Shown here piece by piece: positions 27,182 through 62,358 of a DNA stretch of 64,000 nt (positions within the stretch are counted from its first letter, which is position 1; each line of letters begins with the position of its first letter). A program made the position numbers and the translations under genes. This stretch comes from Catenulispora sp. MAP5-51 (lineage in GTDB: Bacteria; Actinomycetota; Actinomycetes; Streptomycetales; Catenulisporaceae): positions 1-64,000 of the forward strand of contig NZ_JBGCCH010000036.1 in assembly GCF_041261205.1 (NCBI RefSeq), given 5' to 3'. Under the pieces are notes generated by a model. The model had not been told where the DNA came from. It ran no database searches and saw only the letters and a list, made by a program, of their open reading frames with translations.

Positions 27182-29788
27182 TCACCGGACCGGACGGCTG
27201 CTCACGCCGAACCCTGGAACCCCCAACCGCGCGATCCGCCCGGCGGTGGCCCGATCGGGAGCCTGCAACTTGGCGAGGATGGCCGAGACGTGGTGGTCCA
27301 CGGTCTTCGCGGAGATGAACAGCCGTTCCGCGATCTGGGCGTTGGTGCAACCGTCGGCGAGCAGCCCCAGCACGTCGTGCTGCCGGCGCGTCAGGCCCAG
27401 CGGATGCGCACGCGTGGTGGGCCGCGGCCCGGTCGGGACGAACCGGGCCCCCAGACGCCGAAGCGCGCGCCGCGTCAGCTGCGCGGTGGCGTCGGCACCG
27501 AGCTCGGTGAAGATCCGGTACGCCTGATGGAGCAGCTCTTCCTCGCCAGAGTCGAGGAGAGCCAGACCGGCCTCGTAGGGACAGCCCAGCTCGGTCCAGA
27601 GCGTCGCAGCCCCGGTCGCGTCGCCGTCGATCATCCGCTGGTACGGCTCGGCCAGTTCACCGCGGACAGTCTGTCGTGAACCGGTGCGACGCAGCCAGAC
27701 GGCGACCGCGCCACGCTCCGCAGCCGTGCAGCCCGCCCCGGGTCTGGCCGCGGACTCCGCCTCGCGCCTCGCCTTCGAGGGGTGCCCGGCCAGCCAGTTC
27801 GCCTCGGCCCGCGCCAGGCGGGCCGCGACCTGGTACGGCGGCTCGCCCTGGTGGTCGGCGGTCGCCGCCGCCTCGTCCAGGACAGGCCAGAACCCTGATT
27901 CGCCGCGCCGCGCCCGGATGACGCCCAGCCTGACCAGCGCGCACTGCCGGCCGACCGGCGACGTTCCGGCCTCGCTCAGGATCCGGTGCGCCGTCGCCAC
28001 GGCCTCGTCCCACCGCCCGGTCCGCTCGAGCACGTGCGCTAGGTCGCCGCGCAGAAAAGTCGCATAGGCGGTGATGTCGTGCTCGTCGCAGTACGCGATC
28101 CCCTCGTGCAGGCAGCGCTCGGCGTCGGCGAACCGGAGCCGTCCTTCGCTGATCCCGGCCAGGTTGGCATAGGCGCGACCCGCTTGATCCTGATGCCGAC
28201 CGGCCAGCGCGACCTCCAGCGCACGCTGCATCAACCCCGTCCACTCCCGCCCCAGACCGGCGGCCCCGGCCGCTTCCGTGTTCAGCGCCCCGCTCAGCAC
28301 GTCCGTGGCGTCGAACCGCTCGGCCAGCTGCCGAGCCCGCCGGGCCCACCGGATCGCCGATTCGTAATCCGTGCCGAGCAGACACTGATGCGCCAGCGTC
28401 GCGTAGGCCCGCGCGAGCTCCGCGGTCGGCCCGAGCGGTTCGAGCACCGCGAGAGCGGCGCGCGTCTGTTCGGCGGCGTCCCGTCCCCGGCACAGACTCG
28501 CAGCGATCCGCGCCAACCGGGCCAGGTCCGCACCTTCACCCAGCCGATCGCCGATCTCGCGCCGCATCGCGAGCGCCTGCCGTGCGGCGTCCTCGGCCTC
28601 TGCGAAACGATCGAGCAGGGCCAGCTCGTCGGCGAAATCCTCGGAAAGCTCAGCGCGCCGGTCCCGGGCGGCGGCACCAGCGAACCGCAGCGTCCGGGCG
28701 AACTGGGCGGCCGCCTCGTGGTGCGCGCCGAGCTGGCTGGCTCGGCGCGCGGCGGCCGGGGCATGCCGCAGGACCGCGTCCGCGTCTCCCGCGCCCTCGG
28801 CGAGGTGCGCCAGGCGAGCGTCGTCATCGCAGCCCTGCGCGTGCAGCGCCTCCAGGACCCGCCGGTGGATCAGGAAGCTGCGATGTGGCGGGACGGCCTC
28901 GGCGACCGCGAGCCGGACGATTTCGTGCCGAAAGCGCAGCCGGATCCCGTCCGCGACCAGCAGCGCGGACGTCAGGAGGCCGTCGAGCCCTGCTGCGCTG
29001 CTCAGCGCCGTCAGCAGCGACAGCTCGACCCCCGCGCCGATCAGCGCGGCGGTCTCGAGGGCTTCGCGAGCTGACGGATCCAGCCGGACGGCCCGGGCGA
29101 GGGCCACGTCGCGCGCCGACGCCGGCACGCCTGGTCCTTCCGCCTGCAGGAGTTCCGTCACGTAGAAGGGATTGCCGGCGGTCAGCCGGAACACGTCATC
29201 GGCTGCGAAGCCGCTGCCTTCGGTGAGGGTCCGGACGGCGTCCGCCGACAGCGGCTCCAGGCGGATGCGGCAGGTCGTGGGCTGGGCCGCCAGGTCGCCC
29301 AGGGCGACCCGCAGCGCGTCGCCGGCGGTCTCGTCGTCTCGGATACTGGCGATCACGGTCACCGGCGCGCCCCGCAGCCGACGTCCCAGGAATCGCAGGA
29401 GGTCCAGGGTGGCCTCGTCGGCCCAGTGCACGTCCTCGACCACCACCACGTCTGGCACGCCCGTCGAACCCAGCTCGTGCAACAGCGCGCGGAAGAGCTC
29501 CTCCCGCTCGGCCCCGGCCTCGCAGCGCTCCAGTAGATCGCCGCCGAGCTGCTCGGCCAGGTCGAACAGAGGAGTCAGCGGTTGCGGGATGAACAACCCG
29601 TCACAGGCGCTCCATGACCACCGCACGGCTCCCAGGTCCCGGCGTGTCGCTTCCAGCAGTGCCGACTTGCCCACCCCGGCCTCGCCGGACAGCAACACCA
29701 GCCGGCCGCCCTCGTTCACGCACCGGACCATCTCGGCGAGCTGGGACTCCCGCTCCACCAACCGTCCCGCCGCAACCCCCCGAAACAC
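27182..29788 (-). CDS. Large LuxR-family (LAL) ATPase regulator
   Basis: An 868-residue transcription regulator of the MalT/LAL type. The N-terminal ATPase has Walker A in LLSGEAGVGKSALLE (about residues 26-40) and a Walker-B-like VVVVEDVHW. A long helical TPR-like middle section follows. The C-terminal LuxR helix-turn-helix reads LTRRQHDVLGLLADGCTNAQIAERLFISAKTVDHHVSAILAKL. The GTG at 29,788 is chosen because GGGAGG precedes it and the conserved LVERESQLAEMV follows at once; an upstream ATG (30,010) would add a low-complexity extension. It borders a transposase remnant and the lanthipeptide cluster. Control of that cluster is possible but unproven. The gap 29,789-30,134 holds nothing recognisable. 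Confidence 0.85.
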   Translation of the reverse strand: MFRGVAAGRLVERESQLAEMVRCVNEGGRLVLLSGEAGVGKSALLEATRRDLGAVRWSWSACDGLFIPQPLTPLFDLAEQLGGDLLERCEAGAEREELFRALLHELGSTGVPDVVVVEDVHWADEATLDLLRFLGRRLRGAPVTVIASIRDDETAGDALRVALGDLAAQPTTCRIRLEPLSADAVRTLTEGSGFAADDVFRLTAGNPFYVTELLQAEGPGVPASARDVALARAVRLDPSAREALETAALIGAGVELSLLTALSSAAGLDGLLTSALLVADGIRLRFRHEIVRLAVAEAVPPHRSFLIHRRVLEALHAQGCDDDARLAHLAEGAGDADAVLRHAPAAARRASQLGAHHEAAAQFARTLRFAGAAARDRRAELSEDFADELALLDRFAEAEDAARQALAMRREIGDRLGEGADLARLARIAASLCRGRDAAEQTRAALAVLEPLGPTAELARAYATLAHQCLLGTDYESAIRWARRARQLAERFDATDVLSGALNTEAAGAAGLGREWTGLMQRALEVALAGRHQDQAGRAYANLAGISEGRLRFADAERCLHEGIAYCDEHDITAYATFLRGDLAHVLERTGRWDEAVATAHRILSEAGTSPVGRQCALVRLGVIRARRGESGFWPVLDEAAATADHQGEPPYQVAARLARAEANWLAGHPSKARREAESAARPGAGCTAAERGAVAVWLRRTGSRQTVRGELAEPYQRMIDGDATGAATLWTELGCPYEAGLALLDSGEEELLHQAYRIFTELGADATAQLTRRALRRLGARFVPTGPRPTTRAHPLGLTRRQHDVLGLLADGCTNAQIAERLFISAKTVDHHVSAILAKLQAPDRATAGRIARLGVPGFGVSSRPVR

Positions 29789-30134
29789 CTGCCGCCCCTC
29801 CCGATGGCCACTTGAATCAGGGTACGCATAGAGAGGTATCCCTATTGGCCCCGGGGGTGGCTCGGAAGGTCTGACCTGGACCCGTGAGGAAGGCTCGACC
29901 GGGGGACCATTCGGGGTTGGCGGGGGTCTGTCGTGTTGGGGCGAAGTGGCGGTGTCGGCTTGAACTGGACCCGGTGCCGGCGTTGCGGTGAGACGGTTGT
30001 CGTGGTTCACCGTGTCCGGAGGGTTCCGCTACTTCCCCTCGACGAAGTGCCTGTCCTTGCCGAGAACCTCGTCCGCCCTGGCCGAGTAGGGCGTCAGGCA
30101 GCGGCGAGTGCTGCTGGTGGGATCGTGAGTTCTT

Positions 30135-30654: not shown

Positions 30655-31941
30655 TCAGTACACCATTGCCCTGCCGGCGTCGTCATCCCAAACCACCTCG
30701 ACCACCCCCGCACCGAGCAACTGCCGCAGCACCTGGTGCCCCCGCGTGCCGAGTCCGTCCAGATAGGTCCCGATCGGCATCGTGGCGGGATCGTCTGCCT
30801 CCAGCCGCGCGGCGACGAACTCGGCCGCTGAGGGTTCGACGGCGACCTCGCGGTCACCGATGTGCAGCACCAGTGCGCCATCCGCGCGGTAGTCCACAGC
30901 GAGCACCGCCTCGCGGATCGTGACGATGCCGGCTGCGCTGTCCAGGTCCGCGTCGGACAGGATCGCCGCGGTCACCGGGCTCGGGCGTGGCGGATTCCAG
31001 AACGTGCGCAGCGCGGCGACTGCCCGTTCGGCGATCGCCGCGGCGTCTTGGCGGGACGCCCACGCGCTGAGCTCCTTCAGCATCCGCGCCGATTCCTCGC
31101 GCGCTCCTTCCTCCGAGGCGAGCGCGGCCAAGGGGAGTTCGCGGCGGAAGTCCTCCTCCTGCGCCAGGCCTTCGAAGGCGCGCGCCGCCAGCCAGTGCGG
31201 GCTCACTTCCGGGACCGAGAGCGTCAGGTGCAGCGACGGCGCGGCGTCGGTGGTGAAGACCTCGTGCAGCCAGCCGCGCGGCAGCCACAACACGTCGCCG
31301 ACGGTCAGCTCGTAGCGGGCGAACGGCCCGGAGTCCCTGAGGGTCTTCCTGTCCTCGGCCGTCAGCATCGACTCCCGCCAGCGCTGGTCGTCCAGCGGAA
31401 AGGGCGCGATCGGACGGTTGAGCTCCCACGTCTTGCGGCCGGCGAGCTGAATGACGAAGGCGCCGTGGGTGTCGTAGTGGATCCCGAAGCCCTGTGCGTT
31501 CTCAGGGGTCAGATACGCGTTCGCGCCGACCGGACGGCCGATCTCGTAGCCGAGCCGGCGGCAGAAGTCTGCGACCGGCCGCCAGGTGCGGTGCAAGTGC
31601 TCGAGGATGAGCGTCGCCCGGTCGGCGAAGCGCGCCTGGACCGCCGAGGGGTCGGGCATGTCGCGCGTGACGGAGCCCGGGGTGCGCTGCGCGTAGGTGT
31701 AGGCGCTGCCGGGCAGGCGCGAGCCGTCCTTCGACATCGTGAACAGCGGGTGGCGAAGTCCGTGGTCGGCGATCAGCTCCTCGGCGGCGCGTAGGCCGAA
31801 CAGCCGGCCCAGACGCGCGGGGTCCCGGCGCGCCAGTCGTGGTTCGACGGGCAGGTCGGTGCGGAAATCGTCGAGGCGGTCAGTGAGCGCCGAGAGGGCC
31901 CGCAGATTCCGGCTGGACGCTGCGGGGTTCGTGGTCGTCAT
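30655..31941 (-). CDS. JmjC/cupin-type Fe(II)/2-oxoglutarate oxygenase
   Basis: A 428-residue protein related to bacterial JmjC (ROXA/YcfD-like) hydroxylases. The iron-binding facial triad is visible: His155 and Asp157 in GIHYDTHGAF, and His226 in LPRGWLHEVFTT. Lys170 in LAGRKTWEL fits the 2-oxoglutarate contact seen in this fold. A helical C-terminal region (about 240-428) follows, ending in a winged-helix-like stretch. The ATG at 31,941 overlaps the MFS gene by 62 bases; an ATG at 31,977 is an alternative. It is the last gene of the lanthipeptide operon. Relatives hydroxylate ribosomal protein side chains, so here a precursor peptide is the likely substrate (inference). Confidence 0.8.
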   Translation of the reverse strand: MTTTNPAASSRNLRALSALTDRLDDFRTDLPVEPRLARRDPARLGRLFGLRAAEELIADHGLRHPLFTMSKDGSRLPGSAYTYAQRTPGSVTRDMPDPSAVQARFADRATLILEHLHRTWRPVADFCRRLGYEIGRPVGANAYLTPENAQGFGIHYDTHGAFVIQLAGRKTWELNRPIAPFPLDDQRWRESMLTAEDRKTLRDSGPFARYELTVGDVLWLPRGWLHEVFTTDAAPSLHLTLSVPEVSPHWLAARAFEGLAQEEDFRRELPLAALASEEGAREESARMLKELSAWASRQDAAAIAERAVAALRTFWNPPRPSPVTAAILSDADLDSAAGIVTIREAVLAVDYRADGALVLHIGDREVAVEPSAAEFVAARLEADDPATMPIGTYLDGLGTRGHQVLRQLLGAGVVEVVWDDDAGRAMVY

Positions 31942-33214
31942 GGGGAGGCTCCGGTTCTGCGGGGCGGTACGCGGCATCGAACTCGGTCAGCTGCTGCAGG
32001 AAGGCTGGAGTGACGGTCAGGGCCAGGACGGCGGCGAGAACCGCGGTGAGAACCGCGTAGCCCAGCCGCGGTGAGCCGTGCTGTGCCAGTGCGCCCATGG
32101 CCACGCCGCCGAAGGGATAGATGGAGCCACCGACCAGGAACAGGGCCCCTTGGACCCGGCCGGTCCACTCATCAGGCACCACCGCGTAGACACGGCTGTC
32201 GAAGGGGACGGCGATCATCGGCGCGAGCAGGGTGATGCCGGACAATCCCGCGATGGCCACGGCGGGCACCGGGTCGGCGGCGACAGCGGCGCACAGCAGC
32301 GGTGTCAGGACGCTGGCTCCGATGATGATCGCCTTGGCGGGCAGGCGCAGCATGCCGGGCGCCAGCATCGCGCCGACGATCCCGGCACAGGCCACGGCGG
32401 AGTACGCGGCGCCGACCCCGACGCCGTGGCCGGGCCCGACCACAAGCACCAGCCCGAAGCCGATCCCGGCGGTCGCGAAGTTGAGGAGCGCGGCCCAGGC
32501 GGTGAGGGTGAGCAGGAAACGGTTGCGCAGGACATAGCGCAGCCCTGATATGGCTTCACGCATCGCCGGATCTTGCGATGCCGTGCCGCCGCCCAGCGCG
32601 CCTCGGATGGCCGCCACGCACAGGCATGAGACGACGTACGTGGCTGCGTCCAGGACGAAGGGCAACCACGGCGCGAACGCGAAAAGCAGCCCGCCGAACA
32701 GCGGCCCCACCAAGGTGACCGTGTATCCGCGGGCCTGGTTCAGACCGAGCGCCACAGTCAGGTCCCCGGGGCCGACCAGATGCCGCAGCGCCGCGGCCTG
32801 AGCCGGGCTGAAGAACGCCGTGCCTGCTCCTTCCGCGGCGGCCAGCGGAATCAGGACAGGCATGGGCAGGGAACCGGCGAGCAGCAGGCCGCTGATCCCC
32901 AGCATCGCCAGGGCGCGGACCGTGTCGGCGGCGACCATCAGCCGTCGGCGGTCCAGGTGGTCGGCGACGGCTCCGGCGGGCAGCCGGGCCGCCGTGGTCA
33001 CCAGGTACCGGATTGCGATCACCAGGCCCGCGTCGACCGCGGAGCCGTGGAAACGCAGGACAGCCAGCGGCAGAGCCAGTCCGGTCAGCTGCGAACCGAA
33101 CAGCGACAGCGCCTGGCCGCCCCACATGAGGCGGAAGTCGCGGCTTGCGTGCCGCAGGAGAAGGCGCATCCGCGGCCTGCCGTCGGCCTGCGATGCCTTC
33201 GCCCTACGAGACAT
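31880..33214 (-). CDS. MFS exporter of the lanthipeptide cluster
   Basis: A 444-residue major facilitator with about 12 helices. It begins MSRRAKAS, then FRLMWGGQALSLFGSQLTGLALPLAVL, and carries the loop signature GAVADHLDRRRLMVAADTVRAL, typical of the MFS_3/drug-exporter branch. The start at 33,214 overlaps the LanD gene by 11 bases. Position between the modification genes suggests it exports the finished peptide or gives self-protection. No ABC exporter is present in the cluster. Confidence 0.85.
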   Translation of the reverse strand: MSRRAKASQADGRPRMRLLLRHASRDFRLMWGGQALSLFGSQLTGLALPLAVLRFHGSAVDAGLVIAIRYLVTTAARLPAGAVADHLDRRRLMVAADTVRALAMLGISGLLLAGSLPMPVLIPLAAAEGAGTAFFSPAQAAALRHLVGPGDLTVALGLNQARGYTVTLVGPLFGGLLFAFAPWLPFVLDAATYVVSCLCVAAIRGALGGGTASQDPAMREAISGLRYVLRNRFLLTLTAWAALLNFATAGIGFGLVLVVGPGHGVGVGAAYSAVACAGIVGAMLAPGMLRLPAKAIIIGASVLTPLLCAAVAADPVPAVAIAGLSGITLLAPMIAVPFDSRVYAVVPDEWTGRVQGALFLVGGSIYPFGGVAMGALAQHGSPRLGYAVLTAVLAAVLALTVTPAFLQQLTEFDAAYRPAEPEPPHDDHEPRSVQPESAGPLGAH

Positions 33215-33803
33215 GGGATCGCACCGCCTCCCAAGCCGCATTCTCCGGCGTCGTCGAGCCTTGAGTCGCTGTCAGCCAGCCGGAGACGATCCGGGCGACT
33301 TCCTGCGGACGTGGCATGCTGCGCCCCGGACCGAGGGCGCCGCGCCAGAACTCGAACACCTCGCGCTCCTCGGGGTCGACGACGATATGCCCCTGCTCCC
33401 GCAGGCTTCTGACATGTCGGCCGACGATGTCCTTCTCCCACATGGCCTTGTTCATGTGCGGGAAGAACAGGCACCCGGCCGGCGCGGCGAGCAGCGCGGT
33501 CGCGGCGGGGCTGTCGGCCAGTCCGAGCGCGGCGGCGGCCAGGATCTGGGCCGAGGCGGGCAGCACGACAATGCCGGCCGCGGTGAGCGCCAGCTCCACC
33601 GGGTTCACCCCTGGCGCATCGCTGGTGAGGACGCGCCCGCCGACCCAGCCGAGGCTTTCGGCAGGCAGAAAGCGGACCGCATTCGCGGTCATCAGGCAGG
33701 TGAATCCGCCGCCGAGCACGGAACGCAGTGCGGCCAGATATTCGGGCGCCTGCAGGGTCGCGCTGGTGCCGGTGACGATGATCAGAGCCGAGCGGTCGGC
33801 CAT
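33204..33803 (-). CDS. lanD: LanD/EpiD-like flavoprotein (HFCD family)
   Basis: A 199-residue flavoprotein of the family that oxidatively decarboxylates C-terminal cysteines to aminoenethiols. Visible motifs are PASA (residues 82-85) and the substrate-clamp PHMNKAMW (115-122), matching the PxMNxxMW of EpiD. At the place of EpiD's catalytic His the sequence is GVNPVELAL (Asn67-Pro68), so that residue seems replaced. The start lies 5 bases after the LanKC stop, with GAAGGGA within the end of LanKC. Both precursor peptides end in Cys, the expected substrate. Confidence 0.82.
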   Translation of the reverse strand: MADRSALIIVTGTSATLQAPEYLAALRSVLGGGFTCLMTANAVRFLPAESLGWVGGRVLTSDAPGVNPVELALTAAGIVVLPASAQILAAAALGLADSPAATALLAAPAGCLFFPHMNKAMWEKDIVGRHVRSLREQGHIVVDPEEREVFEFWRGALGPGRSMPRPQEVARIVSGWLTATQGSTTPENAAWEAVRSHVS

Positions 33804-33807
33804 GTCT

Positions 33808-36423
33808 TCAGTCCCTTCCGGCGTCGCGGACACGCGGGACGAGCAGCCCGTCCAGGACGCTGTGGAAGTCCGGCCCGGGATGGGCGAGCCGGTGCAGCAG
33901 CTGGAGGATCCCGGCGCTGCCCGAGGCCAGGTCGACGGTGTAGCGCAGGAGTGAGTGGCCGGGGAACGCCAGGCCTTCGGGCTGCCGGCACCCCAAGTTG
34001 AGGATCGAGCCGGCCAGCGTCTCGGCCTGGGTCCGATACCGGTCGCCGCCGAGCAGGTGGTCGTGGTCGAGCGCGAAATTGGCCAAGCCCGCCATGCCGT
34101 AGAACAGGCCCGGATTGATCGACAGCGGAGACAGGGTCGGCGTCATCAGCCGGTCCAGGACGTCGAACAGGTCCGCCTCGCCAGTGGTCGCGGCGTACCG
34201 GATCACCGCCGAGCCGACTCCCGCCGAACCGCGCGCCCAGTACGGTTCGATGAGCTGTGAGTCGATCCGGCCCGGGAATCCGATGCCGACGCGGCGCGGC
34301 CGGGCGGTGGCGAGGTCGAACTGCAGGGCTCGGCAGCCGATCCGCAGGAACTCCTCGCGGCCGGTCGCAAGGTGCAGATACAGCAGGAAGCCCGCGACCC
34401 CCGAGGAGCCCGAGGCGTAGCCGGCGCTGGCGGGCGCGTTGTCCGGGTCCGGCCAATACAGGCCGGTACCGTCGTCGCGGGCGGCGGCCAGCAGCAGGCG
34501 GCCGGTCCGGTCGGCCGCCTCCAGGTGCCGGGCGGTCCCGGTGGTGAGCCAGGATTCGAGCAGGGCCGTGCCGATCCCGGCCAGGCCCGTGGCGATGTCG
34601 TAAGCCGGGACGGCGTCGAGCCCGGCCACGACCCGGTCGAGCAGCCCGATACCGCGGTCCTCCTCCCCGATGCCGATCATCGCGGAGGCCACCCCGGCCC
34701 AACCGTAGTGGAGTCCCGGCGGGAGCCGGTCGGCGTCCGGCAGGTTCCGGTCCAGCCACGACCAAGCGGCTTCGGGGACCTGTCCGGTCAGCCGGTACAG
34801 GGCGCGCAGCACCCCTGCGGCGCCGTGTGCCAGGCCGAAGGCATTGGTGGCGAAGACCGCCGCGTCGGCGGGGAACAGCCGGTCTGCGCGGTCGGGGGTC
34901 ATGGTGCCGAGGATGAACTCGACGCCGTCGGCGACGATGGCGTCGACGGCCGCCGCGTCGTAGCCGACCGGCTCGACGTCCAGGTCGGTGTCGGGACCGG
35001 CGTCCACGCCGAGCTTGCCGAAGACTTCGCGGTCCAGGGGCCACCCGATCAGCGCCGCCGCGTGCCGGGTGATGCGGACCAGCGCCGCGGGGTTCAGCCC
35101 GACCAGCTCGTTGGCCGGGACCACCAGGGCGATCTCAACCCCGGCCAGGCCCGCGTCGTCGAACGCCTCGCCGGGCGCCGTGGCGAAGTCGCTGTCGGGC
35201 GGGCAAAAACCGCGCGTGCGCGGGTAGTCCTTGTGGTCGGCCGTCAGGGGACGGCTCGCCTCGAAATCGATGAGGCGGACGTGCAGGGAATCGGGATCGA
35301 TCAGGATGTTGGTCGGGGACAGATCGCCGTACACCAGGCCCGCCGATCGGCAGGTGTCGACCGCGGCGCGCACGTTCTCGAGCACACGCCGCGCCGAAGT
35401 GCGGTATTCCGCAAGGGCTTCGGGACCCATGTCCCCCTGCGCCACGGGGTTGTTCCTGGCGACGAAGGTGCGCAGCGACATGCCGTAGATCCATTCCTCG
35501 GCGAGGTAGAGATGTTCCCAGGCCTGGAACAACTCGACCGGGCGTGGGCCCAGGCCCGTGGACGCCATCATCTGCAGGACCTCGTACTCACGGCGCAGCC
35601 GTTCCTGCGCGTCGGAACCGCCGGGGCTGAAGGCGGTGGCGGGCCGGGCCTCCTTGAGGACCACCCGGCCGCCCGCCAGCAGATCGTCGGCCAGGTAGAC
35701 GCCACCGGACGTGGAGTGGTGCAGAGCCTTGAGGACCTTGTAGCGACTCAGAGGGCTGTCACCCGCGACGCCGGCGGGCTGCTCCGTGGCGATGAGGTCC
35801 GGGACCCACGGGGGCTTGCGGTAGGCGGGCGAGCGCAGATCCGGCCAGCGCTCGCCGGACGGGCCGGTCAGCATGGTTTCCACGCGGCCGTCGGGACGAA
35901 CCCTGGGCGACTTGAGGAACTCGCCGTAGCGGTAGAAGACCGGTGCGGAGTCGGCGAAACGGCGGTCGGAGAGGATGTAGGGGCCTGAGAAGCCGGCGAA
36001 CGCCGCGGCGAAGCGGTCGAGCAGCGCGCGGCAGTCATCGGGCGAGCGGGAGTAGACCGTGACGACCTTCCCGGCCGAGCCGCGGGGCCACCAGCGCGCA
36101 CCGCTCGCCGCCACCAGGCGGGTGTCGCGCAGGATCTTGAAGACGAACGGCGCGGCCTCGTACTCGCCGCAGACCAGGTCCGCGGCCTGCAGGGCGTTGG
36201 CCGGCGTCGCGGACATGTGGATCTTCCAGCCGTGCTCCGGCAGCACGGGCGCGCCGTACGGGCGGGCGCGCGTCCAGATGCCCTCGACGGCGGTCTCGAC
36301 CGTGGCGCCGAGCCGCTCGCGGACTCGGCGGGTGAGGTCGTCGGCGAAGTCGAAGCGGCCGAGGGTCTCAAAGAAGCGGTCGTCGGCCAGGAGGTAGCTG
36401 CGGATGGCGTTGGTGTCGGCCAT
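33808..36423 (-). CDS. lanKC: Class III lanthionine synthetase (LanKC)
   Basis: An 871-residue trifunctional enzyme that phosphorylates Ser/Thr, eliminates phosphate and cyclises Cys. Residues 1-215 are the lyase domain (FVFKILRDTRLV, WWPRGSAGKVVTVYS, GPYILSDRRF). Residues about 226-480 are the kinase, with Gly loop STSGGVYLADD, Lys257, catalytic Asp367 in YGDLSPTNIL and metal Asp386 in IDFE. Residues about 520-871 are the LanC-like cyclase (HYGWAGVASAM, YWARGSAGVGSA, GLFYGMAGLANFALDH). The zinc-binding Cys and Cys-His of class II/IV cyclases are absent (WARG, FYGMAG), which places it in class III. The ATG at 36,423 avoids overlap with the precursor gene. Confidence 0.95.
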   Translation of the reverse strand: MADTNAIRSYLLADDRFFETLGRFDFADDLTRRVRERLGATVETAVEGIWTRARPYGAPVLPEHGWKIHMSATPANALQAADLVCGEYEAAPFVFKILRDTRLVAASGARWWPRGSAGKVVTVYSRSPDDCRALLDRFAAAFAGFSGPYILSDRRFADSAPVFYRYGEFLKSPRVRPDGRVETMLTGPSGERWPDLRSPAYRKPPWVPDLIATEQPAGVAGDSPLSRYKVLKALHHSTSGGVYLADDLLAGGRVVLKEARPATAFSPGGSDAQERLRREYEVLQMMASTGLGPRPVELFQAWEHLYLAEEWIYGMSLRTFVARNNPVAQGDMGPEALAEYRTSARRVLENVRAAVDTCRSAGLVYGDLSPTNILIDPDSLHVRLIDFEASRPLTADHKDYPRTRGFCPPDSDFATAPGEAFDDAGLAGVEIALVVPANELVGLNPAALVRITRHAAALIGWPLDREVFGKLGVDAGPDTDLDVEPVGYDAAAVDAIVADGVEFILGTMTPDRADRLFPADAAVFATNAFGLAHGAAGVLRALYRLTGQVPEAAWSWLDRNLPDADRLPPGLHYGWAGVASAMIGIGEEDRGIGLLDRVVAGLDAVPAYDIATGLAGIGTALLESWLTTGTARHLEAADRTGRLLLAAARDDGTGLYWPDPDNAPASAGYASGSSGVAGFLLYLHLATGREEFLRIGCRALQFDLATARPRRVGIGFPGRIDSQLIEPYWARGSAGVGSAVIRYAATTGEADLFDVLDRLMTPTLSPLSINPGLFYGMAGLANFALDHDHLLGGDRYRTQAETLAGSILNLGCRQPEGLAFPGHSLLRYTVDLASGSAGILQLLHRLAHPGPDFHSVLDGLLVPRVRDAGRD

Positions 36424-36512
36424 GGGGTGTCCCTCGTCAAGGAAAGGTGCGCCCGAAGGCGCCGGAAGGTATCGGGAGGTTCGCCGGGAAGAACCAGTGG
36501 GAATCGCCAAAC

Positions 36513-36546
36513 GCCTGGCCCGTGCCCCGGCGGGCGCGAGCCAGGC
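36513..36546 (-). terminator. Hairpin after precursor gene 1 (attenuator-like)
   Basis: A nested stem (GCCTGGC...GCCAGGC with an inner GGCCC/GGGC-type stem) lies between lanA1 and lanKC. An almost identical hairpin follows lanA2. It may partly stop transcription so that precursor mRNA exceeds synthetase mRNA, or stabilise the precursor transcripts. Confidence 0.45.
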
Positions 36547-36571
36547 GGCTGTTGTGCGGAATCGAACGGGA

Positions 36572-36715
36572 TCAGCAGTCAACGCTGCAGCCATCAACGC
36601 TGCAGTCAAAGCTGAGGTTGCTGACGGTTGTGACGATCAGGACCCCGTTGGGGTCCATGTCGAGCTCAGGCTCGGTCTCGGTCTGGACCGACTGCAGCTC
36701 CAAGACGTCCTGCAT
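36572..36715 (-). CDS. lanA1: Class III lanthipeptide precursor peptide 1
   Basis: A 47-residue peptide. The leader begins MQDVLELQSVQTETE and contains LELQ, the hydrophobic recognition motif of class III leaders. The C-terminal part holds S32-N-L-S35-F-D-C38, a Ser-x2-Ser-x2-Cys pattern of the kind that makes labionin or methyl-free carbacycles. CSVDGCSVDC follows, giving two more Ser-Cys pairs and a C-terminal Cys47. AAGGAGG lies 9 bases before the ATG. The gene sits between lanA2 and lanKC. The cleavage site is not evident; no protease gene is in the cluster. Confidence 0.85.
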   Translation of the reverse strand: MQDVLELQSVQTETEPELDMDPNGVLIVTTVSNLSFDCSVDGCSVDC

Positions 36716-36746
36716 GGGGATCGCCTCCTTGGCGGATCGGGATGGT

Positions 36747-36780
36747 GCCTGGCCCGCGCCCCGGCGGGCACGAGCCAGGC
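36747..36780 (-). terminator. Hairpin after precursor gene 2 (attenuator-like)
   Basis: The same nested GCCTGGC...GCCAGGC hairpin as at 36,513-36,546 lies between lanA2 and lanA1. Its duplication together with the precursor gene and ribosome site shows that the whole gene-plus-hairpin unit was duplicated. Confidence 0.45.
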
Positions 36781-36805
36781 GGCCATTGCTGCGGAGCCCG
36801 ACGGG

Positions 36806-36913
36806 TCAGCAGTTCCAGCTGTAGGAGCTGCCGTCCGTGTCGATCAGCACGGAGATGTCGGTGTCGGTCTCGGTCTCGGTCTGGACCGACTGCAGCTCCA
36901 GGATGTCCTGCAT
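36806..36913 (-). CDS. lanA2: Class III lanthipeptide precursor peptide 2
   Basis: A 35-residue peptide. The leader MQDILELQSVQTETE has the canonical ILELQ motif and differs from peptide 1 in one of its first 15 residues. An acidic Thr/Asp/Glu stretch follows, then the core end DGSSYSWNC. S29-x2-S32-x2-C35 is a Ser-x2-Ser-x2-Cys motif placed exactly at the C-terminus. With a LanD enzyme this could form an avionin-type ring, as in lipolanthines. AAGGAGG lies 9 bases before the ATG. It is the first biosynthetic gene of the operon; its promoter must lie in 36,914-37,061 or upstream of the regulator. Confidence 0.88.
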   Translation of the reverse strand: MQDILELQSVQTETETDTDISVLIDTDGSSYSWNC

Positions 36914-37061
36914 GGGGATCGCCTCCTTGGCGGATCGGGATGGTGCCTGACGACTCGAAGGTGTCACGCCCGCCGTCCCGGGAAACAGGGTCCTGATTCC
37001 CGGTGGTGTCCCGGGACCGCGCCGGGCGGGATCGCGATATCGCCGCCGAGATCGCGTCGCC

Positions 37062-37718
37062 TCAATCCACGGCGCTGGAGCCCCAGGCCGCCGCCACCGC
37101 CGCCGCACGCGAGGGGACCCCGAGCTTGGCCATGATGGTGGAGACGTGATTGCGGACCGTCTTCTCGGCGAGGAACAGCTCCTTCGCGATCCGGCGGTTG
37201 TCGTATCCCTGCGCGACAAGGCGCAACGTCTCCTGCTCACGTCGGGACAACCGGCGCAAGGCGATGGAGTCCTCGCCCTGCCCGAAGCCGTCGAACAGCG
37301 GGCTCAGTTGCTCGGCCACGGGCCCGGCGAAAACCAGGCTGCCGGCCGCGACCATGCGCACGGCGCACGCCAGATCGCCACCGGAGGAGCCGATCGTCAG
37401 ACACCCGCGAACCCCGGCCCGCACCACCGCCGCCACAGTGTCCGTGTCCTCTGCCGCGGCCAGCGCCAGCGCCAGCGCCAGCACCGGCACCGGCGGCCGG
37501 CGCCGGCGCAGGGCCCGGATGACGTCGACGGCCGCGCGCACATCACCGTGCAGCCCCAGGATGACCAGGTCCGGCGCCAACTGATCGGCCACCACGATCG
37601 CATCCCGCGCCCGATCAGCTTCCCCGACAACGCGAAACTCGGCGCTCCCCTCGAACAACGCCGCCAGACCCGCCCGGAACACCGGCCACTCGTCGACGAG
37701 CAGAATGTTGAGACTCAT
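37062..37718 (-). CDS. Atypical NarL/LuxR-type response regulator of the lanthipeptide cluster
   Basis: A 218-residue regulator. The receiver-like domain (MSLNILLVDEWPVFRAGL...) has LVILGLHGDV where the phospho-acceptor Asp should stand, so residue 55 is Gly. Classical phosphorylation is therefore unlikely. The C-terminal helix-turn-helix (about 150-212) reads LSRREQETLRLVAQGYDNRRIAKELFLAEKTVRNHVSTIMAKLG. GAAGGA precedes the ATG at 37,718. It is co-directional and 148 bases upstream of lanA2, with no histidine kinase nearby. It probably activates the cluster in response to a ligand or its own level. Confidence 0.85.
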   Translation of the reverse strand: MSLNILLVDEWPVFRAGLAALFEGSAEFRVVGEADRARDAIVVADQLAPDLVILGLHGDVRAAVDVIRALRRRRPPVPVLALALALAAAEDTDTVAAVVRAGVRGCLTIGSSGGDLACAVRMVAAGSLVFAGPVAEQLSPLFDGFGQGEDSIALRRLSRREQETLRLVAQGYDNRRIAKELFLAEKTVRNHVSTIMAKLGVPSRAAAVAAAWGSSAVD

Positions 37719-37951
37719 GTCCTTCTTCGCCTCCATCAAGAAGAGGAATCACGGCGCCGCCGCGGGCAGCCCACCTGAACACCCGGCTCGAGGAACGTTC
37801 CACTTTCAAGCCTGCCCGAGGGTTGCGGGCCGGGCATCGGGAGCCGGTCCCTATCTTGGCTTCGCGATCTCCCCATGCCGGACCGCTTGCGCGGGACGTG
37901 CAGACTCGGGGGTGCCCCTGTGTCTTCGTCAAGTGGGCACGGTGATGCGGC

Positions 37952-43920: not shown

Positions 43921-44658
43921 ATGGCCGACAACACCGACAACACCGACAACACCGATAACGCCGACAACAAGGACGGAGGCCGACGGGTCGCTGTGGTGAC
44001 CGGCGGATCCGGTGCCATCGGCGGTGCGATCGCCGCGCGCCTGGCAGAAGATCACACCGTGGTGGCCCTCGACCGCGATGGTGACGTCGCTGTCGACCTC
44101 GCAGACCAGGCCCAGGTCCGCCAGGCGGCGCAGGAGGTGCTCAGCCGGCACGGCCGGGTCGACGTCCTCGTCCACGCCGCGGCGATGGTGGCCTTCGAGG
44201 CGATCGAGGAGTTCGACCTGGAGCTCTGGCGTCAAGTCCAAGCCGTGAACGTCGAGTCGGCCCTGCTGCTCACCCAGGCCTTCACGCCCGGGATGCGCCA
44301 GCGTCGATTCGGCCGCTTGGTCTTCGTCGTCTCCAACACGTTCTGGCGTCCGGCCGGCGGCCATCAGATCGCCTATGTGGCCTCCAAGGGTGCGCTGATC
44401 GGCATGGCACGCGCCCTGGCAGTGGGACTCGGCGGCGACGGGGTGGCGGCGATGGCCGTGGCCCCGGGACTGACCCGCACGCCGGCCACCAGCGTCGTGC
44501 CGGCCGAGGAGTTCCAGGACGTGGCCGCGCACCAGGCGCTGGCCAGGCCCCTCACCCCGGACGACGCGGCCGCCGTCGTCGCGATGCTGGTCCGCGATGA
44601 CGCCGCCGCGCTGACCGGGCAGACGCTCATGGCCGACGGCGGCCTGGTCCTGAGCTAG
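43921..44658 (+). CDS. Short-chain dehydrogenase/reductase
   Basis: A 245-residue SDR. The cofactor loop is VTGGSGAIGGAIA (about residues 27-39), followed by the catalytic YVASK, with VVSN upstream at the Ser position, and LTGQTLMADGGLVLS at the end. The first 17 residues are a repeat of Asp-Asn-Thr encoded by 9-base tandem units (43,927-43,967) and are not part of the usual fold. The ATG at 43,921 has GAGGAGGG upstream. Substrate unknown. Confidence 0.85.
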   Translation: MADNTDNTDNTDNADNKDGGRRVAVVTGGSGAIGGAIAARLAEDHTVVALDRDGDVAVDLADQAQVRQAAQEVLSRHGRVDVLVHAAAMVAFEAIEEFDLELWRQVQAVNVESALLLTQAFTPGMRQRRFGRLVFVVSNTFWRPAGGHQIAYVASKGALIGMARALAVGLGGDGVAAMAVAPGLTRTPATSVVPAEEFQDVAAHQALARPLTPDDAAAVVAMLVRDDAAALTGQTLMADGGLVLS

Positions 44659-46988: not shown

Positions 46989-49745
46989 TCAGTCGCGCGC
47001 GAACGGAGCCAGCGCGTCGCGCAGGGCGGCCCGCGAGCTGACACCGAGCTTCGGGAAGAGCTGGTAGAGGTGGCTGGACACCGTCCGTGGAGACAGGAAC
47101 AGCTTCTCGGCGATCTGCTTGTTGGTCAGACCGGCCGCCGCCAGCCGGGCGATCTCCCACTGCTGCGGCGTGAGCCTGACGCCCTCGGTCCGCGGCGTTG
47201 TGTGCACCGCAGCGCCGCAGGCGCGCAGCTCCTGGTTGGCGCGCTCGGCCCAGGGCGCCGCCTCGAGCCGGGTGAAGGTCTCGACGGCGTTGTCGAGGTA
47301 CAGCCGAGCTCGCGCCGGAGCCTTGCCCCGCCGTAACCGCTCGCCGAAGTACAGCTGTATTCGTGCCGTGTCGAAGGGCCAGCGCTCGGTGCCCTCGATG
47401 GCCAGCGCGTCCTCGAACCCGCGCTCGGCCTCCTGGTCGTCCTCGGCCGCCAGTGCCGCCGAAGCCAGCAGGATGAAGCGCAGACGCTGGGAGACGGCAT
47501 CCAGGCCGGCCCGCCGGGCCGCCGCGACGTGCTCCCGGGCCTGCTCTCGGTGCCCCGAGCGCACGGCCGCCTCGACCTGGTCCAGGATCGACCACAGCGC
47601 GTGCCCGGCGAACGGCGCGAACTCGCCGGTCGGCGTGATCACCGCCGCGTGGTGGTGGGCCCGCTCGAAGTCGCTCTGCGAGAGCGCCATCAGGGTCCTG
47701 GCATGCGCGGCGTAGCAGCGCACGGCCTGGGAGCGGCGCGGGCCCGCCCACATGTCCATCTCGTCGGCCAGTGCCCGGGCCGTCGCGAAGTCGCCGCGGA
47801 CCGCCGCCAGGCACGCCAGAACCCACTTGCCGGTCCAGGAGCGCAGCCGGTATCCCAGTTCGTCGCACATCCTCAGGCTGGTGCCGACCACCTCGCGCAG
47901 CTCGGTCCACTGCCCGCTGCTCCAGGCGTGGCTGCCCCACAGGAAGGACGCCTGGATCGCCGGGAAACTGTTCGCTCCGGTGCTGCCGCCGCGCGCCGTG
48001 CTCCGCAGCTGCTCGTCGATCGCTCCCAAGCGGTCTGCGTAGGCCCCCGCGGTGGCGATCCGCACGATCCGCGCGGGGTCCGGCTCGCCGGGCAGGGCCG
48101 CGAGAGCGGCGTCGAGCCGGGCCCAGTCCGCGGGCCGGGCGCGCGCCGGATCGGCGAACGTGGTGCGCAGCAGGTGCAGTCCGTCCGGGACCGCCGTGCA
48201 CTTCGCGGCTATGGCGTCGTAGTGCGCCCACTCTTGCGCGCGGCCCGCGTGGACGCTGACCATCAGCAGCGCGGAGAGGGCCTCGCGCGTGGTGGTGTCG
48301 TCGGTGTCGTAGGGCTCGGGCAGGTGGGCGAACGCACCGGTCAGCAGACGGCACGCGGTGTCGGTGTCGCCGTGGCTGTTGATCAGGTACACCGCGGTGG
48401 CCACCGCTGCGGCCAGCGAGTCGTCGTCCGGCGAGGCCTGCTTCGCGGAGTCCAGCAGACGGGGGACGTCGCGCACGAAGCCGGTGAGGTTCGCGCCGAA
48501 GTACGCCGCCTTGGCCAGCCGGCGGGCTCGTTCGGTCCCCGCCGGGCTCAGGTCCGCCGAGCGCAGCAGCGCCGCGACCGCGTTCGGGCCGTCGCCGCGC
48601 CGGGAGCTCAGATCGGCGACCTCCTCCAGCAGAGCCGCGAGGGACTCGTCGGGATCGACCGTGGCCTGCGCCAGATGCCAGGCCCGCTGCTCCGGTACGT
48701 CCCGCCAGACCTCCGCCAGCGCCCGGTGCACCCCGCGCCGCTGATCACTGGTCGACAGGGCCACCACCGCCGAGCGCATCAGAGGGTGGCGGAACGTCAG
48801 CCGGCCGGTCCCGTCATCGACGTCCACGAGCCGGGCCCGCTCGGCCGGCGCCAAGTGCTTCAGGTGGCACTTCCCAGCAACCGCCTGGCGGATCACCCGC
48901 AGGCTGCCGGTGCCTTCCAGCGCTGCCACGAGCAACAGGTGCCGGGCGGCGGCCGGCAGGTGCTCGATGCGGGAGGCGAACATCGACTGCAACCGCTGTG
49001 TCAGCGGCAGCCGGTCGGGCAGGGACCAGGTCTGGCTGCGCTGGGAGTCGGTGAGAGCAGCCGGCAGTTCAAGAAGGGCCAACGGATTGCCCTCCGCGGC
49101 GGCCATCAGGCTGTGACGCACGTGCGAGGCCAGCATCGGGAAGCTGCGGGTCAGCAACGCCTCGGCGGCGGCGGAGCTGAGCGGCCCCACGTGGTGGAAG
49201 GGAATCCCGCCGTAGTCGAAGAAGCTGTCCTCTCCCATCCTCGCGGCGCACAGCATCCCCGCGCCGGTACCGGGCAACTCCTGGGCGACCCGTGCCAGGA
49301 CCCCGGCGCTGGCCCGGTCCAGCCACTGCGTGTCATCGAGCGTCAGCAGCATGGGCTTGTCGACGGAGAGCTTCGCGACCAGCGTCACGACGGCTGCGCA
49401 GACCGCGTCGTCGCCCGCCGGCTCGGCTCGCGCGCTTCCCAGGATCGTGGCGAGCACCGGGATGTCGGCCGCTGCCTCCCGGCTTTCCGGTGAGGATTCC
49501 AGCAACAACCGCAGGGCACCGTATGCGATCTGCGCGCGATACTGCACGCCGCCTATCGACAGGATGGCGAGCCCGGCCCGTTCGGCTCGTTCGGCCGCCG
49601 CCGCGAGCAATGCCGTCTTGCCGACTCCCGCCTCGCCCAGAACGACCAGCGCCCCGCCGAAGCGCGGCACGTCGGCCAGGAAAGCGTCCAGCCGCGCCAA
49701 ATCCTCTTCGCGGCCGATCAGGGAAGGTTGTGCCTCGCTCGCCAT
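46989..49745 (-). CDS. Large LuxR-family (LAL) ATPase regulator
   Basis: A 918-residue MalT/LAL-type regulator. It begins MASEAQPSLIGREEDLARLD, with Walker A VLGEAGVGKTALLAAAAE, Walker-B-like LTLDDTQWLDRASAG, a long helical repeat region, and the C-terminal LuxR helix-turn-helix LTPQQWEIARLAAAGLTNKQIAEKLFLSPRTVSSHLYQLFPKLG. The ATG at 49,745 is chosen by the conserved GREEDLARL start. It is divergent from two alpha/beta hydrolase genes and 101 bases upstream of the amidohydrolase gene, which it may regulate. Confidence 0.88.
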   Translation of the reverse strand: MASEAQPSLIGREEDLARLDAFLADVPRFGGALVVLGEAGVGKTALLAAAAERAERAGLAILSIGGVQYRAQIAYGALRLLLESSPESREAAADIPVLATILGSARAEPAGDDAVCAAVVTLVAKLSVDKPMLLTLDDTQWLDRASAGVLARVAQELPGTGAGMLCAARMGEDSFFDYGGIPFHHVGPLSSAAAEALLTRSFPMLASHVRHSLMAAAEGNPLALLELPAALTDSQRSQTWSLPDRLPLTQRLQSMFASRIEHLPAAARHLLLVAALEGTGSLRVIRQAVAGKCHLKHLAPAERARLVDVDDGTGRLTFRHPLMRSAVVALSTSDQRRGVHRALAEVWRDVPEQRAWHLAQATVDPDESLAALLEEVADLSSRRGDGPNAVAALLRSADLSPAGTERARRLAKAAYFGANLTGFVRDVPRLLDSAKQASPDDDSLAAAVATAVYLINSHGDTDTACRLLTGAFAHLPEPYDTDDTTTREALSALLMVSVHAGRAQEWAHYDAIAAKCTAVPDGLHLLRTTFADPARARPADWARLDAALAALPGEPDPARIVRIATAGAYADRLGAIDEQLRSTARGGSTGANSFPAIQASFLWGSHAWSSGQWTELREVVGTSLRMCDELGYRLRSWTGKWVLACLAAVRGDFATARALADEMDMWAGPRRSQAVRCYAAHARTLMALSQSDFERAHHHAAVITPTGEFAPFAGHALWSILDQVEAAVRSGHREQAREHVAAARRAGLDAVSQRLRFILLASAALAAEDDQEAERGFEDALAIEGTERWPFDTARIQLYFGERLRRGKAPARARLYLDNAVETFTRLEAAPWAERANQELRACGAAVHTTPRTEGVRLTPQQWEIARLAAAGLTNKQIAEKLFLSPRTVSSHLYQLFPKLGVSSRAALRDALAPFARD

Positions 49746-49911
49746 GGGCCCAGTCAAGCCGCGGCGGTGCGCGATCACCAGGAAAAGGAGCGGGCAAAAG
49801 TAGCCGCCGCCTGGCGCGAACTAGGTCACATGACTGGAGCGGACGTGTCTGCCGCGCTTCTACCTTCGAGGCAAGGGCCCACATCAAGCCCGGAAAACCA
49901 CTGGAGGTTCG

Positions 49912-59601: not shown

Positions 59602-62358
59602 TCACCGCGTGAGCGGCAGGTCCCGGAGCTGTCGCCGCGAGGTGATCTCGAGCTTCTTGAAGATGCTGCGCAGATGCGCGTCGATCGTCCGCGGGCTCAG
59701 GAACAGCTGCGCTCCCACCTCCTTCGACGTGGCGCCGGTGGCGACCAGCTTGGCGATCTGGAACTCCTGGGCCGTGAGCCGGCCGGCGCCGTGCCCGCCG
59801 GGCCCGGATGGCCGAGTCTCGACGCGCTCTCCCAGCGCGCTCAGCTCACGTGCCGCGCGCGTCGCGAACCCGTCCGCTCCGATCGCGGTCAGCATCTCGT
59901 GGGCTTCCCGCAGGTTGGTCCGGGCGGCCTGGCGGTGGCCGGCCCGCCGTAGCCACTCGCCGTACAGGAGCCGGGTTCGTGCGGTGTGCAAGCGGCCTTC
60001 GCTGTGCTCGAAGTTGTCGATCGCGGCGCGGTAGAGGCCGTCGGCGGCCGGGCCTTCGGCGATGAGGGCCCGGCAGCGCAGTTCCACTCCTGCGGCCCAC
60101 TCGGTGCGGTTCGCTCCCGTTCGCTCCGTGAGCGTCTTCACCATGGGTACCGCGAGTTCCCGGCGGCCCGACCGGACGGCGGCTTCCACGAATTCGTGCG
60201 GTGTGCAGGAGTGGAAGCCCATCTCGTCGAGCTCGGCCGATGGTCGGCAGGCCTCCAGCGCTTCCTGGTACCGGCCGCGGCTGTTGAAGAACACCGCCTG
60301 GGCGAACTCGATAGCGGTGACGAGCCGTCCCTCGCCGCGTTCGACGGCGCCGCGGCGGGCCTTCTCGGCGAGTACGGCCGTCCGGCTGTCCCCGCGCCAC
60401 GCGGCGAGGGTGATCTCGACGTACTCCATTCCAGGCGCGCCGATCTCAGCGGCGATGGCGCAGGCCTCGGCGACGTTCGCGGTGGCGTCGTCGAACCGGC
60501 CGGCGTGGATGTCGGTGAGCGCGAGGTAGCTCAGGGACACCGGAAGCGCCGCCACCGTACCGGTCGAGCGGGAGGACCGGACCTGGCGGTCGGCCAGGGT
60601 GCGCCAGGCCGTGTCCTCGAACAAGTCCATCGCGGCGCTGCAGGCCAGCCAGACCTCCCCCGGCGAGAACGCGTCGTCGTCCTCTTCCTTCACATAGAGG
60701 TCGACCACCTGGCGCAGGAGCGGTGCGGCTTCCAGGAATCCCGATCTGACCTGCGTCGTCAGGCCGTCTAGCAGGAGGTCGACCGGTCTGGTCGGCGACG
60801 GCGCGGGGAGCACCGTGCGAGCCCGGTCGGCCGTCTGGAGCAGGCGGGGGCCTTCGGTGAACCGGCCGACGAAGACGGCGCCGGCCAAAGCCTCCAGGAA
60901 GATGTCCCGGGCGGCGGCCTCGTCCAGGCCCATGGTCAGGTTCGCGGCGTGTTCGAGCCGTGCGACCGCTTCGTCGCTGCGGGCCTGGTCGAAGGCGATC
61001 CTCGCACGCAGCGTGGCGCCGCGTGCGTGGCTCGAGGCGTCGCAGGGCCCCGCGTCGGCGACGGCCAGGAGCTCCAGCGCCCGGTCACCGGCGCCGGCGT
61101 CCCGCTTCGCGCACGCCGCCGCGAGCGCTCGCTCGGCCCGCCGCGCCGGGTCGGGAGTCAGCTGGGTCGCCGCTTCCAGGAACGCCGCCGCGGCGGCGAT
61201 GCCGCCCCGCGCCCGGGCCCGGCCGGCCGAGAGTTCGAGCGCGTCGGCCACTCCGGCGTCCGGGCCGCAGGCGGCCTGGGCGCGGTGCCAGGCCCGGCGG
61301 TCCGGCTCCTCGCCGTCGTCCATGGCCTGGGCCAGCGCGCCGTGCACGGCCCGGCGGTCGGACAGCGAGGCGTCGCGGTAGATCACCGACCGGACCAGCG
61401 GGTGCCGGAAACGCACCCAGAGCCCGAAGGCGATCAGGCCGGTCTCCTCCGCGGGGGTCGCCGCGGTCGAGCCGATGCCCAGCCGCTCGGCCGCGCGCCA
61501 TAACAGGACGCTGTCTCCGGTCGTCTCCGCGGCGGCCGCGAGCAGCAGGAGCCGGGTGTCCGGCGGCAGTCCCCGAAGGCGGGACCGGAAGCTGGCCTCC
61601 ACCTTGCCCGAGACCGGGACCGCGTCGGGCGCGGCGAACCCGCCGGCCAGGTCCGCGCTGCGCGGGAGCTCCAGCAGGGCCAAGGGGTTGCCGCGGGACT
61701 CGCCGAGGATGCGGTCCCGTACCCGGTCGTCCAGCGGCGCCCGGATCCGCGATCTCAGGAGGCTGAGGGCGTCGGGCTCCGGCAGCCCGTCGAGCCGGAG
61801 TTCGGGCAGTCCCGCCAGCTCCCACTGGACTTCGGGTTCGCGGATGGCGAAAAGAAGCGCCACCCGCTCGTTCTGGACTCGCCGTGCGACGAACGCGAGC
61901 GTCCGCGCCGATGCCTGGTCCAGCCACTGCGCGTCGTCGACGACGCACAGCAAGGGCTGCTTCGTCGACGCCTCCGCCAGCAGCCCGAGCACGGCTAGGC
62001 CTGCCCGGAAGCGGTCCGGAACACCCTCGCCTCCCATCCCGAACGCGGTGCTCAGGGCATCGCGCTGAGGCGCGGCAAGCTTCCCGAAACCGTCCAGGAC
62101 AGGGGAGCACAGCTGGTGCAGGGCGGCGAAGGCGAGCTCGGTTTCGAACTCCACGCCGCTGACCCGCAGGATCCGCACGTCGTCAACGGTGAGAACGGAC
62201 TCCAGCAGGGCGGTCTTGCCGATGCCCGCCTCGCCGCGCACGACGAGCGCCCCGCCCCGGCCCGCTCGCAGCTCGGTCACGAGCCGGTTGAGGGCAGCGG
62301 ACTCCGCCCGCCGTCCGACGAGATCCGAGCCTTGGGCTGGTGCGGGACGATCTTTCAT
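59602..62358 (-). CDS. Large LuxR-family (LAL) ATPase regulator
   Basis: A 918-residue MalT/LAL-type regulator. Walker A lies in VVRGEAGIGKTALLESVL (about residues 41-57). CVVDDAQWLDQASART follows at the Walker B position, then a helical middle region and the C-terminal LuxR helix-turn-helix LTAQEFQIAKLVATGATSKEVGAQLFLSPRTIDAHLRSIFKKL. The ATG at 62,358 is preferred because homology begins at once (DLVGRRAESAALNRLV). It is divergent from the MDR oxidoreductase gene across a 280-base region that contains the inverted repeat GTTGA...TCAAC at 62,411-62,427. Confidence 0.88.
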   Translation of the reverse strand: MKDRPAPAQGSDLVGRRAESAALNRLVTELRAGRGGALVVRGEAGIGKTALLESVLTVDDVRILRVSGVEFETELAFAALHQLCSPVLDGFGKLAAPQRDALSTAFGMGGEGVPDRFRAGLAVLGLLAEASTKQPLLCVVDDAQWLDQASARTLAFVARRVQNERVALLFAIREPEVQWELAGLPELRLDGLPEPDALSLLRSRIRAPLDDRVRDRILGESRGNPLALLELPRSADLAGGFAAPDAVPVSGKVEASFRSRLRGLPPDTRLLLLAAAAETTGDSVLLWRAAERLGIGSTAATPAEETGLIAFGLWVRFRHPLVRSVIYRDASLSDRRAVHGALAQAMDDGEEPDRRAWHRAQAACGPDAGVADALELSAGRARARGGIAAAAAFLEAATQLTPDPARRAERALAAACAKRDAGAGDRALELLAVADAGPCDASSHARGATLRARIAFDQARSDEAVARLEHAANLTMGLDEAAARDIFLEALAGAVFVGRFTEGPRLLQTADRARTVLPAPSPTRPVDLLLDGLTTQVRSGFLEAAPLLRQVVDLYVKEEDDDAFSPGEVWLACSAAMDLFEDTAWRTLADRQVRSSRSTGTVAALPVSLSYLALTDIHAGRFDDATANVAEACAIAAEIGAPGMEYVEITLAAWRGDSRTAVLAEKARRGAVERGEGRLVTAIEFAQAVFFNSRGRYQEALEACRPSAELDEMGFHSCTPHEFVEAAVRSGRRELAVPMVKTLTERTGANRTEWAAGVELRCRALIAEGPAADGLYRAAIDNFEHSEGRLHTARTRLLYGEWLRRAGHRQAARTNLREAHEMLTAIGADGFATRAARELSALGERVETRPSGPGGHGAGRLTAQEFQIAKLVATGATSKEVGAQLFLSPRTIDAHLRSIFKKLEITSRRQLRDLPLTR

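Follow-up and report, generated by a model that had tools for sequence, protein, structure and literature searches.

The 64,000-nt window analyzed here comprises positions 1 to 64,000 of contig NZ_JBGCCH010000036.1 from Catenulispora sp. MAP5-51, and positions are given within it unless another locus is named. On its minus strand, between 30655 and 37718, lies a set of genes that can, with good support, be read as a two-precursor class III lanthipeptide cluster; in minus-strand order, these encode a NarL-type regulator, the precursors A1 and A2, the lanthionine synthetase LanKC, a LanD-like flavoprotein, a major facilitator superfamily (MFS) exporter, and a JmjC_2 oxygenase (Table 1), and from LanKC onward the reading frames overlap one another. 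A preliminary description of this DNA had proposed precursors of 47 and 35 amino acids with near-identical leaders, followed on the same strand by LanKC, LanD-like, MFS, and JmjC proteins. The precursors were found where it had placed them, with LELQ and S-x2-S-x2-C in both, and the larger products were borne out by NF038151 for LanKC and by Pfam matches exceeding the cut-offs for LanD (PF02441), the exporter (MFS_1), and the oxygenase (PF08007), although LanD has a proline at the position of the active-site histidine.

Table 1. Features of the putative lanthipeptide gene set in the window (G010 is a congeneric genome)
Feature	Position	Strand	Remarks
Pseudo-receiver NarL/LuxR-type response regulator	37062..37718	-	PF00072 and PF00196; syntenic G010 homolog, 54% identity
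Precursor A1, 35 amino acids	36806..36913	-	Full sequence MQDILELQSVQTETETDTDISVLIDTDGSSYSWNC; C terminus T-D-G-S-S-Y-S-W-N-C
Precursor A2, 47 amino acids	36572..36715	-	C terminus SNLSFDCSVDGCSVDC; core unit to SNLSFDC, then SVDGCSVDC extension
Stem-loops	36747..36780 after A1; 36513-36546 after A2	-	42-nt repeat, 90% identity
Class III lanthionine synthetase LanKC, 871 amino acids (from the chosen ATG)	33808..36423	-	NF038151; RamC_N, Pkinase, LANC_like
LanD-like flavoprotein (HFCD family)	33204..33833	-	PF02441; P78 at active-site His position
MFS exporter, frame overlapping the end of LanD	31880..33241	-	MFS_1/MFS_3 above cut-off
JmjC_2 (ROX/NO66-like) 2-oxoglutarate (2OG) oxygenase	30655..31941	-	PF08007, 71 bits; HxD...H and Lys kept

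The class III assignment made in the preliminary description is upheld by LanKC, which exceeds its family cut-off and keeps its catalytic residues, and by the alignment of the precursors. LanKC scores 674 bits against NF038151 (curated cut-off, 575) and has all three of the expected domains. The lysine of VVLKEA and the GDLSPTN and DFE motifs are kept, and the inactive kinase that had been named beforehand as telling against the proposal is not apparent from the sequence. Of the eight lyase residues named for ThurKC in the available text of PMC10604976, seven are identical in the window LanKC alignment, and K108 is replaced by arginine. Both precursors pair an LxLQ-type leader with a core of the S-x2-S-x2-5-C type, which the accessible part of PMC8960859 gives as the class III ring motif.

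The sequence AAGGAGG precedes A1 and A2 alike, the ribosome site and leader block of the two genes form a 95-nt direct repeat that is 93% identical, and the pair is a tandem duplication. Open reading frames (ORFs) of 25 to 60 amino acids with an early [LIVMF]xLQ motif and a terminal cysteine number two in the window; its 40 second-order Markov simulations gave a mean of 0.05 and a maximum of 1. The LxLQ-like motif by itself is no more frequent than expected by chance (three in the window versus a simulated mean of 3.9); the duplication, the presence of LanKC, and conservation elsewhere make a chance origin of the precursors implausible. The core DNA of A2 contains a 15-nt unit in three near copies, reading SFDC-SVDGC-SVDC, and A2 therefore most likely grew by in-frame repeats from a 38-amino-acid form with the same core; it fits an alignment of nine precursors, extends nine residues past it, and ends in cysteine again. 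A strong hairpin follows each of the precursor genes (-39.3 and -36.3 kcal/mol, with z scores of -4.54 and -4.46, after A1 and A2, respectively), and these stem-loops may possibly act as a partial terminator or an RNA stabilizer. Scans for terminators and promoters yielded nothing usable as support.

The set was compared with the genomes of the same family (14, the window's included), order (391), and class (394). LanD was detected at an E value of ≤1e-15 in 5 of the 14 family genomes; in four of these (the window's, G010, G005, and G012), LanKC and the MFS gene lie beside it, and in two (the window's and G010), JmjC does so as well. In the congener G010, the genes stand in the same order and one precursor was found (MQDEILELQ...VLVHTDGSHVSILC); identity across the syntenic genes is 54 to 65%, with the core pattern retained. 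Among 153 stop-to-stop frames with their start at 15 to 50 kb in the window, all those matching a 20-kb G010 stretch fall within 30658-37775; the similarity thus ends at the same genes, regulator and JmjC, which are the likely borders of the cluster. In G005 and G012, the order is precursor-LanKC-LanD-MFS, without JmjC, and the precursors, of 38 amino acids, have LxLA instead of LxLQ in the leader and end in SAVSDHC. Identification of the G005 locus with that of catenulipeptin was set aside, as its precursor appears unlike that of catenulipeptin; the locus is taken as a putative second class III locus in that genome. Farther afield, LanD was found in 8 of 391 genomes of the order at 1e-25 and in 3 of 394 of the class at 1e-20, whereas LanKC is common (53 of 384 genomes at 1e-60). 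There are 14 LanKC places in 12 of 201 genomes of the G393 family, perhaps Mycobacteriaceae-like, and LanKC was absent from the 8 genomes of the G398 family. A scan of genome contigs with LanD gave one distant CoaBC-like locus.

Across nine precursors from loci with both LanKC and LanD, four of them from the G393 family, whose LanD is a separate lineage, the only invariant columns are Met1, one leader leucine, and the two serines and the cysteine of S-x2-S-x2-C, which is the sole invariant core pattern. The four G393-family loci (L093-L096) have short precursors ending in S[IVF]SS[NS]GC; with their LanKC and His-type LanD, these loci are lipolanthine-like. Where JmjC is present, the pattern runs further, the cores reading VL[IV]xTxxSxxSxxC (three precursors, two genomes): T-x2-S-x2-S-x2-C occurs in 3/3 cores with JmjC (A1, the A2 unit, and G010), in 0/2 without it, and in 0/4 of the G393 family.

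The LanD-like flavoprotein matches MrsD at 2.3e-21 and keeps M-N-x2-M-W, and a structure model superimposes on MrsD with a Z score of 15.3 and a root mean square deviation of 3.8 over 159 aligned residues, which is moderate evidence for the fold given a model confidence (pLDDT) of 61. The peptidyl-cysteine decarboxylases EpiD and MrsD share this fold and motif but have the active-site histidine where the window protein has proline. In a tree of 22 hand-chosen rows (11 with proline and 11 with histidine at the site), the window protein falls in a close clade of eight rows (support, 100/99) with proline at the position of EpiD H67 in all eight; each reads N-P where the His-type rows read x-H. 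As a single group, the 11 proline rows have a support of only 77/86. The histidine rows comprise MrsD, SpaF, TvaF, a Priestia flavoprotein beside class I genes, two CoaBC proteins, G655, and the four LanKC-linked LanDs of the G393 family, which form a separate 100/100 group; that LanKC-linked LanDs may keep the histidine is thus a statement about the four uncharacterized loci L093-L096. The title of PDB entry 1g5q is of EpiD H67N with a substrate peptide. More-distant flavoproteins with proline at the site occur at L082 8019-8603 and L019 9841-10434; in the former, from Streptomyces finlayi, a nonribosomal peptide synthetase (NRPS) gene adjoins by annotation, and the proline group may also act outside the ribosomally synthesized and posttranslationally modified peptides (RiPPs). 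A Rhodococcus plasmid (L080 10031-11792) carries a pair of an MFS gene and a Pro-type LanD of the close clade, for which LanKC and a precursor were not found.

All eight peptides found next to the close clade's Pro-type LanDs have a C-terminal cysteine, five with LanKC (A1, A2, G010, G005, and G012) and three without it (G013, G383, and G316), the small ORFs having been filtered for LxLQ in G010, for at least one cysteine in G005 and G012, and for a cysteine near the end in G013, G383, and G316 (as in the G393 family). Reruns free of residue filters on G013, G383, and G316 and on the G010 gap recovered the same ORFs, and in the first three, they gave one common small ORF besides a frame antisense to LanD. 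This consistency argues that LanDs of the close clade act on the C-terminal cysteine despite the lost histidine, whether or not by decarboxylation. The ORFs of the three LanKC-free loci encode 26 amino acids of the form MKKI[ST]VRK[TP]GSIKLTSSA..Y....C and are divergent from LanD (L013 9352-9432, minus strand; L017 9555-9635, minus strand; L018 10563-10643, plus strand). Near them lie TPR and flavin-reductase or P450 frames and no LanKC match, and these loci perhaps represent another RiPP type.

The JmjC_2 protein matches NO66 at 1.7e-19, with HYD, the lysine of GRK, and a later histidine aligned; the ROX-type HxD...H iron triad and 2OG lysine are present in the alignments with both NO66 and the G010 homolog, to which identity is 55%. 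A structure model of the protein was poor (pLDDT, 39.6) and was not used. Bacterial JmjC homologs in RiPP-like contexts are mentioned in the available text of PMC12710340; the terms lanthipeptide and JmjC both occur there, in text that does not contain "class III," and in the accessible part of PMC12707348 (biphenomycins). The exporter scores 145 bits against TIGR00900, under the cut-off of 319.6, and its gene adjoins LanD in G010, G005, and G012 as well. The regulator is likely to be that of the pathway. It has glycine at the usual position of the phospho-acceptor aspartate, both in the window (PDLVILGL) and in G010 (PDVVVVGL), which makes control by phosphorylation unlikely. Three large LuxR-family AAA_16 regulators also lie in the window (27182-30010, 46989-49778, and 59602-62529), the first two of which have no match to the G010 stretch.

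Among known systems, the set resembles the lipolanthines (microvionin, goadvionin, and nocaviogua) in combining LanKC, a LanD-type flavoprotein, and a C-terminal cysteine, and its precursor motif appears compatible with their avionin, a decarboxylated labionin analogue formed from a C-terminal cysteine (available text of PMC9415263). It differs in the addition of the MFS and JmjC_2 proteins and in a LanD without the histidine, the comparison being one of descriptions. A Pfam scan of 31 neighboring window frames, some of which may not be genes and which did not extend to smaller frames, found no ketosynthase or carrier-protein family; an isolated short-chain dehydrogenase (43921-44658) gives a match to the KR model as well. 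Lipolanthine-type acylation is therefore not suggested, and with polyketide and fatty acid synthase genes absent among the frames scanned, membership in the lipolanthines is not claimed. With the labionin-type peptides (labyrinthopeptin, NAI-112, and catenulipeptin), the set shares LanKC, the LxLQ leader, and the S-x2-S-x2-5-C core (accessible parts of PMC8960859 and PMC7268733). The window departs from them in its flavoprotein and JmjC enzyme and in a core that ends exactly at cysteine. To our knowledge, labionin-type clusters have neither enzyme. Class III clusters of the SapB/ram type share with the window LanKC, a small precursor, and an adjoining NarL-type regulator, but as far as we know, they have ATP-binding cassette exporters in place of the MFS protein and no LanD or JmjC. 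Flavoproteins in class III clusters are already noted in the available text of PMC7268733, and the pairing of LanKC with LanD is thus not new in itself. Term searches of the available papers found none joining lanthipeptide, LanKC, and JmjC and no report of a lanthipeptide as the substrate of a ROX-type JmjC enzyme.

We propose a pathway in which LanKC would bind the LELQ leader, phosphorylate serine and possibly threonine residues and eliminate the phosphate, and cyclize the C-terminal S-x2-S-x2-C, while the flavoprotein would act on the C-terminal cysteine, with oxidative decarboxylation to an enethiol as its most likely reaction. In A1, the ring would close as avionin, and in the lengthened A2, it would be of the avionin or aminovinylcysteine type; the JmjC_2 enzyme would hydroxylate a core residue, the MFS protein would export the product, and a protease encoded elsewhere would remove the leader. 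The best prediction for the product is a C-terminal avionin-type ring, because avionin has the spacing of the invariant S-x2-S-x2-C. The sequence itself shows the genes, motifs, synteny, and retained LanKC and JmjC residues; all of the chemistry is inferred, and we would assign the pathway of LanKC, decarboxylating flavoprotein, JmjC hydroxylation, and MFS export, taken as a whole, a probability of about 0.6.

A number of observations weigh against this pathway. Its weakest step is decarboxylation by a LanD without the usual histidine: P78 is aligned opposite the MrsD histidine, an alignment of EpiD residues 63-171 with LanD residues 74-182 places H67 at position 78, and PATANI in MrsD becomes PASAQI in the window protein. 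We take H67 of EpiD to be essential for activity, and the H67N variant is reportedly inactive. The loss of 46 Da that the preliminary description expected from oxidative decarboxylation is, given the proline of the clade, plausible but unproven. Both precursors score below NCBIfam cut-offs (A1, 21 bits against 30 for NF038159; A2, 20.4 bits against 22 for NF038154). LanD was found beside none of 29 other LanKC loci (L051-L079, with flanks of about 1.5 kb) and adjoins only 4 of the 14 LanKC places of the G393 family, and no precursor was found for the Pro-type LanDs of Rhodococcus, G390, and G486. JmjC has homologs in many genomes (55 of 394, counting the window's own), and neither LanKC nor LanD was present in any of the six JmjC neighborhoods fetched (L044-L049) from the 54 other genomes bearing one, so that the place of JmjC in the cluster rests on synteny in two genomes.

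Proline in all eight rows of the close clade could mean that the flavoprotein no longer decarboxylates and acts as a scaffold for the C terminus, with LanKC alone making labionin or lanthionine and the carboxylate left intact; in characterized peptides, lanthionine or labionin arises from the class III S-x2-S-x3-C motif (available text of PMC7268733). We consider this unlikely: the clade is conserved beside Cys-ending peptides in two contexts, with and without LanKC, and all five of its LanKC-linked precursors end in cysteine. The same N-P signature, set against x-H in the His-type rows, would also be expected if LanD performed other chemistry on the C-terminal cysteine, such as oxidation with retention of CO2, water or Asn77 taking the place of the histidine, and the distant Pro-type flavoprotein beside an NRPS gene in S. 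finlayi hints at other substrates. Nothing direct counts against such chemistry, which we nevertheless hold to be rather improbable; cysteine decarboxylation is the sole reaction on peptides that we know of for the HFCD family. That the cluster is silent or decaying and makes no product is very unlikely. A sigma-70 consensus scan found no promoter, but that consensus misses many actinomycete promoters, and all frames are open, the genes overlap, LanKC and JmjC retain their mapped catalytic residues, and the G010 synteny preserves the core pattern along with the genes. The class III lanthipeptide cluster is real and probably functional.

Within the proposed pathway, the T-x2-S-x2-S-x2-C spacing, which runs one step further where JmjC is present, raises the highly speculative prospect that LanKC zips three dehydro residues together in a single cascade, forming one C-S bond and two C-C bonds and giving an extended labionin or avionin, which a flavoprotein lacking the histidine and a JmjC enzyme that hydroxylates peptides would complete. 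We know of no description of such a ring system or of a His-free mechanism for the enzyme.

The chemistry of the His-less LanD is the main point of interest in the cluster and is possibly new, since a residue thought to be essential has been lost while the sequence of its presumed target peptide has been strictly kept. If the flavoprotein decarboxylates the C-terminal cysteine, a histidine thought to be essential in the family would be dispensable, and LanD would have been recruited into class III pathways at least twice, from separate lineages, given the separation of the two LanD groups in the tree. Otherwise, some undescribed chemistry would belong to a conserved enzyme whose neighboring peptides strictly end in cysteine.

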